Below, one piece after another: positions 679-10,644 of a stretch of DNA of 64,000 nucleotides; the stretch's first letter is position 1; each line of letters starts with the position of its first letter. Position numbers and translations under genes: made by a program. Source of the DNA: Pseudanabaena sp. FACHB-1998 (GTDB lineage: Bacteria; Cyanobacteriota; Cyanobacteriia; Pseudanabaenales; Pseudanabaenaceae); NCBI RefSeq assembly GCF_014696355.1, contig NZ_JACJQA010000026.1:1-64000 (forward strand). Direction: 5' to 3'. Below the pieces are notes generated by a model. That model made no database searches. It was given only the letters and a program-made list of their open reading frames with translations, and had not been told where the DNA came from.

Positions 679-3600
679 TTAATTCTCTATGCACCACTTA
701 ATTTTTTCAATCCAGTCCTCCATGTGTTTTTCGTTTAAAAAATCAGGTTGCCAAAACATATTATGGTGACCAGGCAAGACAATTGTTCGGAGACGACCTT
801 TAATGTAACCCTGCCATCCATAGCTCGGAAATAGCCAAGACATATCCGAAATCAGAGGTAAGGGTGTAGTGGAATGATCACAAAATAGTAGTGTTACATT
901 TCCTTCGTAAACTTCTGGTATATAACCTTTTCTCACTTTCACAATAGAATCCCAAATCAGATCAACCTGTGATTGATCCTGTTCGCTACCGCTATTGAAG
1001 TTTTTAGGAGACTCCTCTTTAAGCGGCTTATCGACAGGGCTTCCTTCCTGTATATCAGCCAATAAAGCCTCATTCGTACCCCCCCCAGAAGTGCGCGGAG
1101 CAAATTTCGTAAGGGCTTTAGCCAAACGGTCTAAAACGTATCTCCTCCGTTCTAAAAAATTTCTTTGAGTTACGATATTAATTTCGCGTTCGTACAGCCC
1201 TTTTTTTTCAATTCTTCTATAGGAACTTTCTATAGAAGATTTTGTAGAGAGCTTTGATGAAGATCTGGGAATAAACTTTGCTAATTTCCTAGATAATCGC
1301 TCTGCTATGTAAAGAGACTGTTCCAAAAAACTTTTTTGAGTTAAATTTTGTAGATGTAATTTAACAGAAAAATATTTATACTCAAACTTGCGAGTTTGTT
1401 CCAGCAATTTATGATTAGGAAATTCTCTTTCAATTAAAATTAACTGGGATACTTGTTTGCCTAAAGTTTTTAATTGTTGGGCAATTTCATAGACTACCAA
1501 TGCATCAAAGCACCATCCTATAAGAACAAAAGAGCCAGATAATTCTGAGCTAATCAATTCTTTAGCGTAGGTATTAGCTACACGCTTAATATAGTCATAG
1601 GGGCTATTAACGACCCTGTAACCTGTAGAAGGAAAAACATAAGTCTCGTAAGAATCTGCAAATTGAGTAGCTAAGTTAGATAAACCCACCCAAATCAGTT
1701 TCTTTTCTGATGAAAACTGCTGAGCACTTAGTTTAGTTAGCAGAGAAAGAGTTCCTATTTGGACAACACCTTTAATGCTAATATTTCTGAGCATTAAATC
1801 TCGCAAATCATCATTATCAAGTAGACAATCATAATTTGTTGTTGTTGATTTTTTGTTAATCAATTTTACTAGATTTTCAATTGTAGAAATCTGTGGTAAG
1901 CTTGAAAATCTAATTAGTATATTTGCCTGTTTTTCTATCTCTGAAATAAGATGAGGGATTAACAAAGAATGCCCACCTAGTTCAAAAAAATCATCGGTTA
2001 TTCCAATCGGTTCATGTTGTAAAACCTCTTCCCAAATTTTAGCTAGTTGCTTTTCTAAATCAGTGCGGGGAGCAACATGCTCGTCTTTAAGTAAATAGGC
2101 TCCCTCAATGGTTGGCAAAGACTGTCTACTAAGCTTACCGTTAGGAGTTAAGGGTAAACTATCCAAAGCTATAAATCCTGAGGGAATCATGTAATCAGAT
2201 AAATTATTTTTCAAAAATGAACGTAATTTTCTGATACTAAATTCTGCTTTTTTATTAGTAACAATATAAGCGAAAATTCTATGCTCGCCTGACGGTAATT
2301 CTTGACTGGTTACGGCTACTTGTTGAACATCTGGGTATTGAGATATAACTGTTTCAATCTCTTCAAGCTCAACGCGCATTCCTCGAATTTTTACTTGAAA
2401 ATCCTGTCTTCCTAAAACTTGAATATCACCATTTGATAAGTAGCTTGCCACATCTCCTGTTTGATAAAGTCGAGAATATTCATGGTCATTTATGTCATTG
2501 GTTAAAACAAAGGGATTAACCATAAATTTGGTTTGATTTAGTCGTGGATTCTTAAAGTAACCACGAGCTAAACTAATACCTGATATATACAGATATCCGC
2601 TTTGTCCAACGGATACAGGCTGTAAATTTTCGTCCAGTATATAAACTTGATGATGATCATAGGCTTTCCCTACGGGTACATAGCCTTGCGTTTGGCTAAA
2701 GTCATCGGGAACCCTATAGGCACAAGCACCGATAGTTTCTGTTTGACCATAAATGTTAAATATTTGAGGATTAAGTAGATTAGATTTTTGATTTTTTTGT
2801 TCAAATGCATCTCGAACTTTTTTGAGTAGTTGACAAGGCAATAGTCCACCTGAGAACACAAGTATTCTTAATTTTGAGTTTAATAATGATTCTTTGGCAG
2901 AGCTTTCTTCTTTGGCTAATTCCAAAAGTATAAATTGCCAAACCGATGAAACTGTATCCAAGACAGTTACTTGTTCTCTTTGAATTAACTCTAATAATTC
3001 AATAGGATTTTTTGTGGTGTTATTCGGAGAAATAACTACTTTTGCCCCATTAAACAGAGGTAGAAATAATTGTCGAATTGATGAAGAGAATGAGAAAGAT
3101 GCTGTGTGTAAATAAATATCATCAGAATTAATGCCGATAATATTATTAAGGGATTTTATATAGCATTCGATTTGTGAATGAGTGATTTCTACGCCTTGAG
3201 GCTTACCCGTAGATCCAGAGGTATACATGATATAGGCAAGATCTTGGGGTAATATTTCTGGAGGATAAGAAATTTCTTGACTAGTAGATTGAGAAGATTG
3301 ATGGATATGATTAGAATCTGTTAGTGCTTGTTCTAGCTTATCTATTAAAACTAATTTAAGTTCTTGATTTGGGAGTGTTTGGGCGAGTTTCTCTTGAGTC
3401 AGAATGAGAGATAAGTCGCTTTCTTCTAAAATTATTGATAATCTTTCTTGAGGATAGTTGGGATCTATCGGAATAAACACTCCACCCGCTTTAAGAACGC
3501 TAATAATTCCAATAATCATGTCTAGCGATCGCTCTATAAAAATTCCTACCAGAAATTCTGAGGTAACTCCTATTTGTTGTAAATAACTGGCTAGGCGATC

Positions 3601-3708
3601 GGACTTTGTTTGCAGTTCTTGATAAGTAATTTGTGCTGATGAGTCTTGAATAGCGATCGCTTCTGGATGACGTTCTACCTGTGTTTGTAAAAATTCTTGT
3701 ATAAACAT
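679..3708 (-). CDS. Single-module NRPS-like enzyme: adenylation, carrier, thioesterase (1009 aa)
   Basis: The adenylation domain spans about residues 10-530: YTSGSTGKPQG at 162-172, NIYGQTE at 318-324, YQTGDV at 415-420, GRQDFQVKIRG at 433-443 and NGKLSR at 523-528. A carrier domain follows, with the phosphopantetheine motif GGHSL (Ser581). A thioesterase-like alpha/beta-hydrolase starts near 665. There is no condensation domain. Two oddities: the usual Asp that holds the substrate amino group appears to be Ser208 (FSSS instead of FDAS), suggesting a non-amino acid substrate; and the thioesterase nucleophile motif reads GWCFD (731-735), Cys instead of Ser, with a likely catalytic His in GHH (980-982). 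A variable region (794-815 against 850-871) looks like an internal duplication. The ATG at 3708 gives the expected N-terminus. The gene stands alone. Known A-T-TE enzymes often dimerise aryl-pyruvates; that link is inference. Confidence 0.9.
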   Translation of the reverse strand: MFIQEFLQTQVERHPEAIAIQDSSAQITYQELQTKSDRLASYLQQIGVTSEFLVGIFIERSLDMIIGIISVLKAGGVFIPIDPNYPQERLSIILEESDLSLILTQEKLAQTLPNQELKLVLIDKLEQALTDSNHIHQSSQSTSQEISYPPEILPQDLAYIMYTSGSTGKPQGVEITHSQIECYIKSLNNIIGINSDDIYLHTASFSFSSSIRQLFLPLFNGAKVVISPNNTTKNPIELLELIQREQVTVLDTVSSVWQFILLELAKEESSAKESLLNSKLRILVFSGGLLPCQLLKKVRDAFEQKNQKSNLLNPQIFNIYGQTETIGACAYRVPDDFSQTQGYVPVGKAYDHHQVYILDENLQPVSVGQSGYLYISGISLARGYFKNPRLNQTKFMVNPFVLTNDINDHEYSRLYQTGDVASYLSNGDIQVLGRQDFQVKIRGMRVELEEIETVISQYPDVQQVAVTSQELPSGEHRIFAYIVTNKKAEFSIRKLRSFLKNNLSDYMIPSGFIALDSLPLTPNGKLSRQSLPTIEGAYLLKDEHVAPRTDLEKQLAKIWEEVLQHEPIGITDDFFELGGHSLLIPHLISEIEKQANILIRFSSLPQISTIENLVKLINKKSTTTNYDCLLDNDDLRDLMLRNISIKGVVQIGTLSLLTKLSAQQFSSEKKLIWVGLSNLATQFADSYETYVFPSTGYRVVNSPYDYIKRVANTYAKELISSELSGSFVLIGWCFDALVVYEIAQQLKTLGKQVSQLILIEREFPNHKLLEQTRKFEYKYFSVKLHLQNLTQKSFLEQSLYIAERLSRKLAKFIPRSSSKLSTKSSIESSYRRIEKKGLYEREINIVTQRNFLERRRYVLDRLAKALTKFAPRTSGGGTNEALLADIQEGSPVDKPLKEESPKNFNSGSEQDQSQVDLIWDSIVKVRKGYIPEVYEGNVTLLFCDHSTTPLPLISDMSWLFPSYGWQGYIKGRLRTIVLPGHHNMFWQPDFLNEKHMEDWIEKIKWCIEN

Positions 3709-3958: not shown

Positions 3959-4133
3959 TAGCCATCCTAAATAATTTGAGAAAGCACGCCCCTGTGGGGC
4001 GTGCTTTCTCAAATTATTTAGGATGGCTATTCAGCTTTTTGAAGCTTTGTGGGGTAAAGATAAATTTTAAAAAAGCTTACGAAGTAGGCTTTTTTAAAAT
4101 TTATCTAGGTTTTAAGAAAGCGCAAAGCGCTGT
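3959..4133. repeat. Two-hairpin dispersed element, copy 1
   Basis: A perfect palindrome with 34-base arms (3959-3992, 3996-4029; loop TGT) is followed by a second one (4058-4076, 4088-4106) and the tail GGTTTTAAGAAAGCGCAAAG. The same order of segments recurs, diverged, at 23806-23960. Reading frames through it are by-products. Confidence 0.8.
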
Positions 4134-7078: not shown

Positions 7079-8607
7079 TTGGACAAAGCTGAAAAGTCAA
7101 GCCCATCAATTGGTTTAAAGAACGCTAATAATCTATTAGCAATTTTCGCTACGCCGCCTTCAATATTAGACTCAATATTTAAAGGCATCACAGGATCGTG
7201 TAGAGATAGACGCAGCAGAAACCACCCATTCTCATCATCGGAATTGCAAGAAATGCGAATCCCTTCATAATTATTCGGGACGATCTCCCAATTGGATTGG
7301 GTTGCCGCAAAGGCTTGTAAATCCGTAATTACGCGATCGCCTAATGCTTTAAAATCCGCTACAAGCATCTTGATGCGGAACTCTTCGCTCTCGATTGGTT
7401 CTTGTAAATTAGCAATCAAATCGGTGAGGGAGTTGCCCGCTAATTTCGATTTTGCCAATTCAATCAAGAGCTTACTCACCAAATAAGCCCCATCATCAAG
7501 GAAATAGTTTTCCTTCATCGCCCCATGCCCCGAAGTCTCGATCGCTAACCAAGACTCTTGCCCTAATTGATTTAGACGCAGCGACTCATTAATTACATTC
7601 TTGTAACCCCGCTTAAAGCGATGATGCACGCCTTCTAAGTCTTGTTCAATAAATTTAGCCAATCCATCGGAAGTGATGGAATCCGTGACAATGGTTGATT
7701 TGGGATGCTCTTTAAGAACAATCGCCGAAATTAAAGCAATCAGCCGATTACGGTTAAGCTCTTTGCCAAATTGATCAACCGCCGCACTGCGATCGACATC
7801 CGTATCAAAAATAATCCCAAAATCTGCTTGATGCTTGATTACCGCTTCACAAATAGAAGCCATCGCCACCTTATCTTCGGGATTAGGAACATGATTGGGA
7901 AATGTGCCATCTGGATCAAGAAATTGGCTACCCGTAATATCTGCTCCTAAAGGCAGTAACACCTTATCTGCATAAAATCCTCCCGCACCATTTCCCGCAT
8001 CGACAATAATTTTTAAGCCTTTAAGAGGCTGATCATAATGTTCAGGATGATGGACAGATTCACGGATTTTGGTGACAAATTGATTCGCATAGACTGAGAT
8101 AAAATCCTGTTCGGTGATACTACCGTGAGAAGTTGAGAACGGAAATTCATTCTTTTCGGCAAGATAGAGAATATCGGTAATATCTTTTTTCTCTAAGCCC
8201 CCCTGAGCCGTGAAGAACTTTAAGCCATTGCGATTAAAGGGTAAATGACTAGCAGTGAGCATAATCGCGCCATCGCAGTGAAACCCGTCAGTAATGGTAC
8301 TCATAAACATTGCTGGCGTTGAAGCGATCGCAAAGTCATACACTTGACTACTAAGGGAATTAATTCCTTCCATTACGGACTGCATTAGCTCCGCTCCCGA
8401 CAGCCGACTATCGCGACCAACGGAAATTAATAAATCAGCAGTTGGCTTCGCTAATTTCTGAGATAGCCAACTCGCAAAAGCTTGTCCTAAAATTTTGGCG
8501 ATTGTAGGAGTTAGATTTACATCTTCATTGGGAACTCCTGCGATCGCTACACCACGAATATCTGAGCCATTTTGAAGCTTTTTCCAATTAATATTTTGCA
8601 TCATCAT
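7075..8607 (-). CDS. Phosphohexomutase (phosphoglucomutase/phosphomannomutase)
   Basis: An alpha-D-phosphohexomutase of about 510 aa that interconverts hexose 1- and 6-phosphates. The phosphoserine loop reads TASHLPFNRNG, the metal loop DTDVDRSA, and the sugar-recognition loop ETSGHGA is present, followed by the C-terminal phosphate-binding domain. An ATG cluster at 8601-8607 is chosen as start because related proteins begin just before NWKKLQNGSDIRG; further in-frame starts at 8664 and 8691 lie in or beyond a palindrome (8661-8699). Substrate preference (glucose or mannose) is not decided by the sequence. Confidence 0.9.
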   Translation of the reverse strand: MMMQNINWKKLQNGSDIRGVAIAGVPNEDVNLTPTIAKILGQAFASWLSQKLAKPTADLLISVGRDSRLSGAELMQSVMEGINSLSSQVYDFAIASTPAMFMSTITDGFHCDGAIMLTASHLPFNRNGLKFFTAQGGLEKKDITDILYLAEKNEFPFSTSHGSITEQDFISVYANQFVTKIRESVHHPEHYDQPLKGLKIIVDAGNGAGGFYADKVLLPLGADITGSQFLDPDGTFPNHVPNPEDKVAMASICEAVIKHQADFGIIFDTDVDRSAAVDQFGKELNRNRLIALISAIVLKEHPKSTIVTDSITSDGLAKFIEQDLEGVHHRFKRGYKNVINESLRLNQLGQESWLAIETSGHGAMKENYFLDDGAYLVSKLLIELAKSKLAGNSLTDLIANLQEPIESEEFRIKMLVADFKALGDRVITDLQAFAATQSNWEIVPNNYEGIRISCNSDDENGWFLLRLSLHDPVMPLNIESNIEGGVAKIANRLLAFFKPIDGLDFSALSK

Positions 8608-8660
8608 CTTACTTGTAAGCAGTCGCGTGCTATGCGGATGGATAAAGTCTATCAACTTAG

Positions 8661-8699
8661 CCATAGTTTTGTTGTGCCGTAGGTACAACAAAACTATGG
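8661..8699. repeat. Palindrome overlapping an alternative start of the mutase gene
   Basis: CCATAGTTTTGTTGT (8661-8675) pairs with 8685-8699 around GCCGTAGGT. In mRNA it forms a hairpin in the leader about 55 bases before the chosen start. Confidence 0.8.
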
Positions 8700-8745
8700 A
8701 TTTGCCCTAGATTTACTTTTTATCGCAATTTCTAAAAGTGTGACC

Positions 8746-8788
8746 CCCCGAATAAATTGCTGCGCGAAGCGCAGCAATTTATTCGGGG
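8746..8788. terminator. Palindrome, 20-base arms, loop GAA
   Basis: Arms 8746-8765 and 8769-8788 pair perfectly. It directly follows the DUF1830 gene (minus strand) and probably ends its transcript. Confidence 0.75.
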
Positions 8789-8790
8789 AC

Positions 8791-9024
8791 TTAAAGTAGC
8801 TGACAAGGAATGCGATCGCTTAAAACTGAGGTGACACTTAGATAAGTGTGAATCTCTAAATAAGCATCAGGTGGAGCATTGAAATCAAAATCATTGTCTG
8901 GGAATATCGCCCTTTCAATGCATTCATTTGCTCCGCCCAGCAAACGCACAATTTGGATTTGTTGCGTTTGATTTATATATTTATAGGAAATCTCATTTGA
9001 GCTATTTAAGTACATGGTTAACAT
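8791..9024 (-). CDS. DUF1830 protein, 77 aa
   Basis: A small soluble cyanobacterial family. The characteristic C-terminal part reads FPDNDFDFNAPPDAYLEIHT and then SDRIPC, with LLGGANECIERAIFP before it. The function is unknown in the family. Starts at 9024 or 9015 (both ATG) are possible. It follows the degenerate kinase-like gene on the same strand with a 41-base gap, so they may share a transcript. Confidence 0.85.
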   Translation of the reverse strand: MLTMYLNSSNEISYKYINQTQQIQIVRLLGGANECIERAIFPDNDFDFNAPPDAYLEIHTYLSVTSVLSDRIPCQLL

Positions 9025-9065
9025 AGTCTTAAATGGGTTGACAATAATTTTTTGATTGGAAGCAT

Positions 9066-9731
9066 CTAATAACCACTATGCCAATGTATTACTGAGTCTA
9101 ATGGCAGAGAAAATTTTATTTTTCCTTTAAATAAATCATGCTTGCTTTTTGGCAAAGAAAAAGTAAATACTGTATCTTTTTCATTATTAAAAACAACTGA
9201 AAGATTACTATTATTCTCTTCAGCAAATTGCCTACATAGAAGCAATTCAATCCTTGCAATTATCTCATCTATTTTACTGTCGTGAGTAATATAGGTGTCT
9301 GTTTGCAATATTTGATAACAACTTTGATTATTCGTACTATCACCAGAAATAATAATGGAAACAACTATATGATCATCAACAGTTTTAGAGAAGATTTTAA
9401 CAGTTTCTCCAATATTTCCAAACTTAACAATATTTATAATCAAGTTGCGAATCATGCAGCAAACCATATCTTTGCGAGCATACACAATAGCCTCACTATT
9501 CATCTCAAAAACAACTTGAATATCTTTAGGTAAAGTGATTTTAGTCAATCGCGCAATTGAATCAGCAATCACTTCATCTACCATGAATGTGTCCTTAGTC
9601 TCTTTAAATTTGATTGATGTTTTTTCTGTATTATTTAATATATCTGAATCGTTTCTGTGACTAAAGACTGGATTAGTAATTGTGTTAACATACTCACAAT
9701 TAATTGTTGGAATATTGTTTAAATCACTCAT
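9066..9731 (-). CDS. Degenerate histidine-kinase-type ATPase domain protein, 221 aa
   Basis: Residues about 50-200 match the GHKL ATPase layout: DEVIADSIARLTKITLPKDI leads in, then a weak N-box (MVCCMIRNLIINIVKFG), and a final strand pair ending TVFTFSLP. The glycine boxes (DxGxG, GxGLG) are missing or unrecognisable, and there is no His phosphoacceptor, sensor or receiver. It may be an inactive kinase remnant or a protein that binds a partner kinase or regulator. The AT-rich sequence and weak codon bias suggest relaxed selection. Call by fold pattern only. Confidence 0.6.
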   Translation of the reverse strand: MSDLNNIPTINCEYVNTITNPVFSHRNDSDILNNTEKTSIKFKETKDTFMVDEVIADSIARLTKITLPKDIQVVFEMNSEAIVYARKDMVCCMIRNLIINIVKFGNIGETVKIFSKTVDDHIVVSIIISGDSTNNQSCYQILQTDTYITHDSKIDEIIARIELLLCRQFAEENNSNLSVVFNNEKDTVFTFSLPKSKHDLFKGKIKFSLPLDSVIHWHSGY

Positions 9732-9906
9732 TATTTTATTTAAATTGCTTGGTCTATATAGTCTTAGATGAAATTAATTAATAAGCTGTATTCAGAGAAT
9801 TACTGAAGGTAATGCACGGTTAATTATATGAAAGCACAATGAGAAAGAACTTAATACTTAAGATTTAATCTATAAATTTATAAATTTTGCACTTTCTTAA
9901 AACCTC

Positions 9907-9953
9907 AGAAACTTTTTAAAAGTATTACCAAGCAATTCTTTTAAAAAGTTTCT
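9907..9953. repeat. Inverted repeat, AAGAAAC edge family
   Basis: AGAAACTTTTTAAAAG (9907-9922) pairs with 9938-9953; the 15-base loop has lost the TTGC core seen in other members. Confidence 0.7.
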
Positions 9954-10138
9954 TGTATCTCACAAAGATTTAATAGGTAATACCTACTTATCAATTCATT
10001 CTTATAGAACTACGATTGAATTAATTTACAAAATGTTGAAGTCGATTGATTTCATTACAAAACTTAACGTTGGACAATGATTGAGTTAATTAAAGGTTTA
10101 CTCTCATTGCCTTTTTTCTAGTTATACTTCCTTCCCAG

Positions 10139-10180
10139 CCAAGAGTTAGTGACGCTTCGCGCCGCACCACTAACTCTTGG
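10139..10180. repeat. Palindrome nested in a second inverted repeat
   Basis: CCAAGAGTTAGTG (10139-10151) pairs with 10168-10180 around a CGCTTCGCGC core. It is flanked by CTTCCTTCC on the left and AGGAAGGGAGTAAC on the right (about 10203-10216), an outer inverted repeat also seen at 14350-14426. Confidence 0.75.
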
Positions 10181-10235
10181 GTTTTAATGTCTATTTTTGC
10201 CTAGGAAGGGAGTAACTGTTGCCATTCTTGGTAGA

Positions 10236-10286
10236 ACACAAAACCAGAAGACGAGTTGCAGCGCAACTCGTCTTCTGGTTTTGTGT
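10236..10286. repeat. Palindrome, 24-base perfect arms, loop AGC
   Basis: Arms 10236-10259 and 10263-10286; outer edge ACACAAAACCAG, inner core GAGTTGC. Confidence 0.9.
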
Positions 10287-10383
10287 AGATTTTGGCAACA
10301 CACACAAAGTTACAAAGCTTGGCAATTTCTTAAAACGTTACATTTGTCCCATACATTTTTAATACTAATTCCCAAAACTTGAA

Positions 10384-10426
10384 AAAAATTAGGTGTGCGC
10401 GTCTTTGACGCACACACCTAATTTTT
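10384..10426. repeat. Palindrome, 20-base arms, loop TTT
   Basis: Arms 10384-10403 and 10407-10426 with one mismatch; edge AAAAATTAGGTGTG. Confidence 0.85.
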
Positions 10427-10644
10427 CATTCTATTAATGGAAGCTCCTGCTAACCAGCTATTTGGCTTTGCAAGTTTATTAGATATGGCAAAGGCAAGTA
10501 TTTAAATAAGTTCGCTATGTAAACTCTTAAAGCATTTGTAAATATAGAAAGCAATACTTTTAAACAATATCGTAAGCTTGTAGAAATGTAGATCACACTA
10601 ATCATAGAAATTTAGATTTCTTAATTCTTGAAATGATATTAATC

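Follow-up and report, generated by a model that had tools for sequence, protein, structure and literature searches.

In the window, by which we mean the whole stretch of 64,000 nucleotides from Pseudanabaena sp. FACHB-1998 that was analysed, an intact open reading frame on the minus strand, which the first-pass annotation had left unstated, runs from position 3708 to 679 and encodes a synthetase with adenylation (A), carrier (PCP) and thioesterase (TE) domains (Table 1). Pfam analysis of the protein assigned AMP-binding to residues 7-385, AMP-binding_C to residues 450-525, PP-binding to residues 554-617 and Thioesterase from residue 678 onwards. No Condensation (C) domain was found with Pfam in the 1009 amino acids, and the single-module A-PCP-TE layout without C domain that the first-pass annotation had described was thereby confirmed. 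The A10 lysine (Lys525) and the PCP serine (Ser581) were both intact. No other NRPS-type gene was detected in the genome, which is 99.9% complete and in which the next match was distant (E 8e-21), and a PPTase gene was present in the same genome.

The GC content of the gene was 35%, similarly low in both halves, as compared to 42-50% in other genes nearby. An IS-like contig end was found on one side of the gene and housekeeping genes on the other. No polysaccharide genes adjoin it, and no obvious tailoring gene was seen among its first neighbours. In the synteny comparison, BolA and exonuclease genes were adjacent in the genus relatives without an A-PCP-TE gene beside them, indicating that the window gene is an accessory insertion, and no ortholog with this combination of parts was detected in 38 genomes of the order. 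Positions 1-113 of the window were found as identical copies at the ends of contigs C17, C34, C41-43, C47 and C59. As this segment recurs like an insertion-sequence end, the break in the contig, 0.7 kb away from the gene, is an effect of the assembly. Four near-perfect palindromes (arms of 31, 24, 34 and 23 nt) flank the gene on both sides, at 540-662 and 3959-4106, and are possibly small mobile repeats or terminators.

Table 1. Features of the A-PCP-TE synthetase gene, in window coordinates, with residue numbers of the encoded protein in brackets.
Feature	Position	Strand	Basis or remark
A-PCP-TE synthetase gene	679..3708	-	1009 aa from an ATG start; no other NRPS-type gene in the genome
Adenylation domain (3-533)	2110..3702	-	Pfam, alignment and tree; AF2 pLDDT 86.7
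FSFSSSIRQL (205-214)	3067..3096	-	Ser208/Ser209 = GrsA 235/236, Arg212 = GrsA 239
Asp251 = GrsA 278	2956..2958	-	Invariant across the A-domain clade
YGQTE (320-324), replacing YGPTE	2737..2751	-	Clade-wide Gln/Pro counts
Carrier domain (554-617), phosphopantetheine Ser581 in LGGHS	1858..2049	-	Likely fusion zone
PCP-TE linker (about 621-665), LSxxDYRALL...GKRGLI	1714..1848	-	Common to Pseudanabaenaceae Cys-TE modules
Thioesterase (about 666-1009), alpha/beta hydrolase	682..1713	-	Nearest solved folds AB3403 and SulM PCP-TE
Cys733 in GWCFD, nucleophile position	1510..1512	-	Alignment, motif location
Glu760 in LILIE, usual triad Asp position	1429..1431	-	Alignment
His982 in LPGHH, likely triad His	763..765	-	Alignment, motif location
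Lid segment, first duplicate copy (about 789-817)	1258..1344	-	BLOSUM score 80, reached by 0 of 2000 shuffles
Lid segment, second duplicate copy (about 846-874)	1087..1173	-	Same internal comparison

The pocket code of the A domain, mapped by hand to the GrsA positions in an alignment of 104 A domains, was S S R D V S I G A K. Controls in the same mapping gave their known codes, e.g. DAWFLGNVVK and DILQLGLIWK. It had been proposed that FSSS stands here in place of FDAS and that the Asp binding the amino group is lost. The alignment agreed with this, since FSFSSS is located at residues 205-210, a serine replaces the Asp at GrsA 235 that marks alpha-amino-acid A domains, and the invariant Asp of the pocket is at 278 instead. 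The loss of Asp235 was coupled to a change in the A5 motif, with YGQ found in 55 of the 59 domains with Ser or Thr at 235 and YGP in 40 of the 42 domains with Asp235, both counts taking in related sequences. Asp235 coordinates the amino group and is lost in hydroxy- and keto-acid A domains, of which the keto-acid domain StsA also has the A5 proline replaced (M415) (PMC11253843). From the loss of Asp235, the YGQTE motif and this literature we infer that the alpha-amino group is missing from the substrate. Serine at 235 is no proof of a non-amino substrate, as McyG activates L-Phe despite having Val at this position. The keto- and hydroxy-acid domains characterised so far carry a small or aliphatic residue at 235 (PMC11253843). 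The polar pair Arg239 and Asp278 suggests that the tail of the substrate is polar or charged. Among the solved single A domains of cyanobacteria, ApnA A1 of anabaenopeptin was the nearest. No paper matching the pocket codes was found in the literature search.

FSSS was found to be fixed in a cyanobacterial A-domain clade with the code S-S-R-D-x-(S/A)-x-G-x-K, nearly all members of which carry S-S-R-D or T-A-R-D. The window A domain has all parts of the clade signature, namely FSF(S/T)(S/A)S(V/I/L)RQ, Asp278 and YGQTE, and the first of these motifs recurs in about 50 genomes. In a scan of GTDB genomes 55 loci matched two signature peptides. Most of these loci were cyanobacterial, with a few found in Mesorhizobium, Bacteroidota, Planctomycetota, Acidobacteriota and Bacillota. 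Sixteen or more of the 55 encode proteins of the A-PCP-TE layout that are about 870-956 aa long and end in a canonical GYSFGG-type Ser TE, and some of the other loci of the clade open multimodular NRPSs.

The gene neighbourhoods differed between these two groups. Among the 96 neighbour proteins of 14 single-module A-PCP-TE loci there were nine GT4 glycosyltransferases, five sulfotransferases, four Wzy_C proteins and three Wzx-type proteins. None of these families was among the 25 commonest around 15 loci where that A clade is part of a multimodular NRPS (60 neighbour proteins); there, MFS exporters and FA_hydroxylase were common instead. The link to polysaccharides is a lead and not a rule, as only about 6 of the 14 A-PCP-TE loci lie clearly within polysaccharide clusters. 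The literature search gave nothing relevant on A-PCP-TE proteins tied to exopolysaccharide. By-eye inspection of the sequences at a Roseofilum locus (L040) identified an MBOAT protein and a DltD-like protein beside the A-PCP-TE protein. At three other loci (L048 at 7838-10636, L095 and L104) the TE is replaced by a multi-pass membrane domain fused to A-PCP, called acyltransferase-like by eye in L048 and L095, where it has no Pfam match; these fusions are possibly one-protein systems for membrane acyl transfer. In Chamaesiphon (L072, L074 and L079) the A-PCP-TE gene comes immediately after a sodium:dicarboxylate symporter, which hints that a dicarboxylate may be the acid.

Each of the 14 terminal TEs of Pseudanabaenaceae that were aligned had cysteine as its nucleophile (GWCYNG, GNCYEG, GYCFEG). 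These TEs sit at the end of C-A-PCP-TE modules, lack the HPxGG (HxxGG) loop and have a PCP-TE linker of their own, which is absent from other A-PCP-TE proteins. The window TE matched this type by its Cys, by the missing HxxGG loop and by a recognisable though degenerate linker. The GxSFGG motif and HPxGG loop of Ser TEs were absent from it, with GWCFD in place of the former. Cys733, Glu760 and His982 were assigned by alignment and the alpha/beta hydrolase fold by fold match, as in a type I thioesterase. The first-pass annotation had likewise taken the Cys of GWCFD (residues 731-735) as the nucleophile, and no Ser was found to replace Cys733 in the TE alignment. The departures particular to the window TE are GWCFD itself, Glu at the triad acid (also in L014) and a long, unaligned lid of about 100 aa with an internal duplication. 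No shuffle in the lid comparison scored above 39. An AF2 model of PCP-TE had a mean pLDDT of 71 with the lid poorly predicted, and gave AB3403 as its best and SulM PCP-TE as its second-best fold match. As the A-domain motif recurs across genomes and Cys is present in every one of the aligned Pseudanabaenaceae TEs, these oddities exceed chance. In Pseudanabaena sp. SR411 (L039, G004:C221:42000-61000) a gene for an SSRD loader A-PCP-C-A-PCP was found together with two C-A-PCP-TE genes, both with Cys TEs without the HxxGG loop; we know of no product of this cluster.

The trees of the two ends of the protein disagreed. In the A tree the window A domain was sister to the Chamaesiphon A-PCP-TE proteins (SH-aLRT 99), and its identity to the A-PCP-TE family (L070-L118) reached 55%. 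In the TE tree the window TE joined the Pseudanabaenaceae Cys family (support 100/96), and its grouping with the A-PCP-TE thioesterases was rejected (p-AU 0.0156). This rejection is moderate evidence because the window TE branch is long (1.82), which also makes the placement and the activity of the TE less sure. Windowed identity favoured Chamaesiphon up to about residue 520, showed no preference across the N-terminal half of the PCP and favoured Pseudanabaena terminal modules at about 561-780. Based on this disagreement the gene appears to have arisen by natural fusion. Sequence and trees show an S-S-R-D A domain from the cyanobacterial A-PCP-TE family attached, inside the PCP or beside it, to the PCP-linker-TE end of a Pseudanabaenaceae C-A-PCP-TE module whose TE uses Cys. 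The shared linker and the missing loop give independent support, apart from the TE tree. An origin by internal deletion of a loader-to-terminal NRPS cluster, as in L039 where the SSRD loader lies just upstream of C-A-PCP-TE, was also considered and is not favoured, as the A tree preferred the Chamaesiphon A-PCP-TE proteins over the L039 loader. By sequence comparison neither FSSS nor the Cys is private to the window gene, each being ordinary in its own lineage. The novelty lies in their combination within a single polypeptide and in the code of the A clade, which is uncharacterised.

Among known systems, the C-A-PCP-TE protein AB3403 of Acinetobacter baumannii (PDB 4ZXH) is closest in its TE, with a Cys nucleophile, GWCF and a triad acid after beta6. 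AB3403 has a C domain and GWCFGG, whereas the window protein has no C domain, GWCFD, Glu as the acid and no HxxGG loop. AB3403 is the other solved Cys TE and differs in the position of its acid from SulM and ObiF, where the triad Asp has moved to position II, with a QCN motif in SulM (PMC11298585). The TEs of SulM and ObiF1 share the Cys nucleophile and the PCP-TE fold with the window protein but belong to multimodular contexts. The NRPS OA858_03905 of Pseudanabaena galeata CCNP1313 (A-PCP-C-A-PCP-TE) matches by genome coordinates G022, whose TE (L009) belongs to the same Cys family. The first A domain of OA858_03905 has Ser235 and the code SIFHSGICM, read by the authors as hydroxy- or carboxy-acid activation (PMC11356792); the window code is SSRDVSIGA, and OA858_03905 has two modules with a C domain. 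The A-PCP-TE family of Chamaesiphon, Roseofilum, Nostoc and others shares A clade and layout with the window protein but has the canonical Ser TE with an HPxGG loop. The fungal quinone and furanone synthetases also have the A-T-TE order without a C domain (PMC9047271). They are fungal and use aromatic keto acids, and their pockets were contrasted only by way of the characterised keto- and hydroxy-acid domains. As a working analogy the DltA/DltB/DltD system of D-alanylation also pairs an A domain with a carrier, and MBOAT and DltD-like proteins lie beside L040; the window protein differs in being one polypeptide with a TE, in its A code and in having no such neighbours.

Taken as a whole, we consider with about even confidence that the window gene encodes a stand-alone, single-module NRPS-like enzyme of chimeric origin for acyl loading and release. 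The substrate of its A domain is most likely a carboxylic acid that lacks an alpha-amino group and is released or transferred through Cys733. This acid would be small, with no amino group on the carbon beside the carboxylate that the A domain adenylates, and Arg212 (239) and Asp251 (278) may read its polar or charged tail, for example that of a hydroxy- or dicarboxylic acid. Once adenylated, it would be loaded onto the phosphopantetheine of Ser581 and passed to Cys733, which could release it to water or hand it over to an acceptor. In the A-PCP-TE family as a whole this acceptor would most plausibly be a sugar or polysaccharide, in a role resembling the D-alanylation of teichoic acid. It is rather doubtful that the cyanobacterial S-S-R-D A-PCP-TE proteins form an unrecognised, NRPS-derived system of polysaccharide decoration with a non-amino acid, from which the window gene arose as a fusion that gained a Cys TE without the usual oxyanion loop and with it a new release chemistry.

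The commonest alternative reading is that the protein is a decaying or minimised NRPS whose TE became vestigial after the fusion, so that it only activates and carries an acid or is inactive. This is possible, although we think it unlikely. The long TE branch, the changes from GWCxG to GWCFD and from Asp to Glu, the unaligned lid with its duplication, the deviating GC content and the missing orthologs in the order are consistent with decay, whereas the frame of 1009 aa is intact, the core motifs of the A domain are kept, as are the PCP Ser, the Cys and the His, and a PPTase is present. The A-PCP-TE layout is known for amino-acid tailoring, and the enzyme could keep an amino acid bound to its PCP while this is tailored in trans, and afterwards hydrolyse it off. 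The missing Asp235 is no absolute bar to this, as seen in McyG, and the invariant Asp278 could bind the amine. However, Asp235 is lost across the whole clade together with the change to YGQTE, and the first neighbours include no obvious tailoring gene, which makes this reading improbable.

The product ideas of the first-pass annotation fared less well. Dimerisation of aryl-pyruvates to quinones or furanones has in its favour the domain order, identical to that of the fungal enzymes, and the lost Asp235. The pocket with Ser, Ser, Arg239 and Asp278 is nevertheless unlike the characterised keto- and hydroxy-acid domains with their small or aliphatic residue at 235 (PMC11253843), which lowered this idea, and the relatives are found either amid polysaccharide genes or at the start of multimodular NRPSs, so that we regard it as very unlikely. 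The first-pass annotation had also linked Cys-type TEs to strained or lactone rings. For a beta-lactone or beta-lactam of the kind made by ObiF or SulM speak the Cys nucleophile and SulM PCP-TE as second-best fold match. Cys is the rule in this TE lineage, Glu760 follows beta6 (position I by alignment) while the triad Asp of SulM and ObiF is at position II, the QCN motif of SulM is not shared, AB3403 has a Cys with no such chemistry known, and a single loaded unit here has no peptide partner or partner module. Ring formation thus appears highly unlikely. That the gene is an assembly chimera and not a real fusion is hardly credible, even though a repeat ends the contig within 1 kb of it, as neither half has a second copy in the genome, the frame is continuous and the GC content is low in both halves.

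As a natural fusion of A and PCP-TE parts from separable lineages, the window gene is useful for locating workable NRPS domain joints, and it exposes a genus-wide family of Cys TEs without the standard HxxGG loop. The clade code SSRD...G.K with YGQTE is spread over the cyanobacteria and more thinly over several other phyla, often beside polysaccharide genes, and a single substrate assignment would inform dozens of so far unassigned genes. A conserved bimodular NRPS between FA_hydroxylase and an MFS exporter was observed at several multimodular loci (L085-L094, L099, L101 and L103), hosted by Nostoc, Dolichospermum, Cylindrospermum and others. Its first A domain has the code TARDVGIG(N/H)K and the second mostly DAWFLGNVVK or DAFFLG(V/L)TFK, and it apparently makes up an uncharacterised peptide family.
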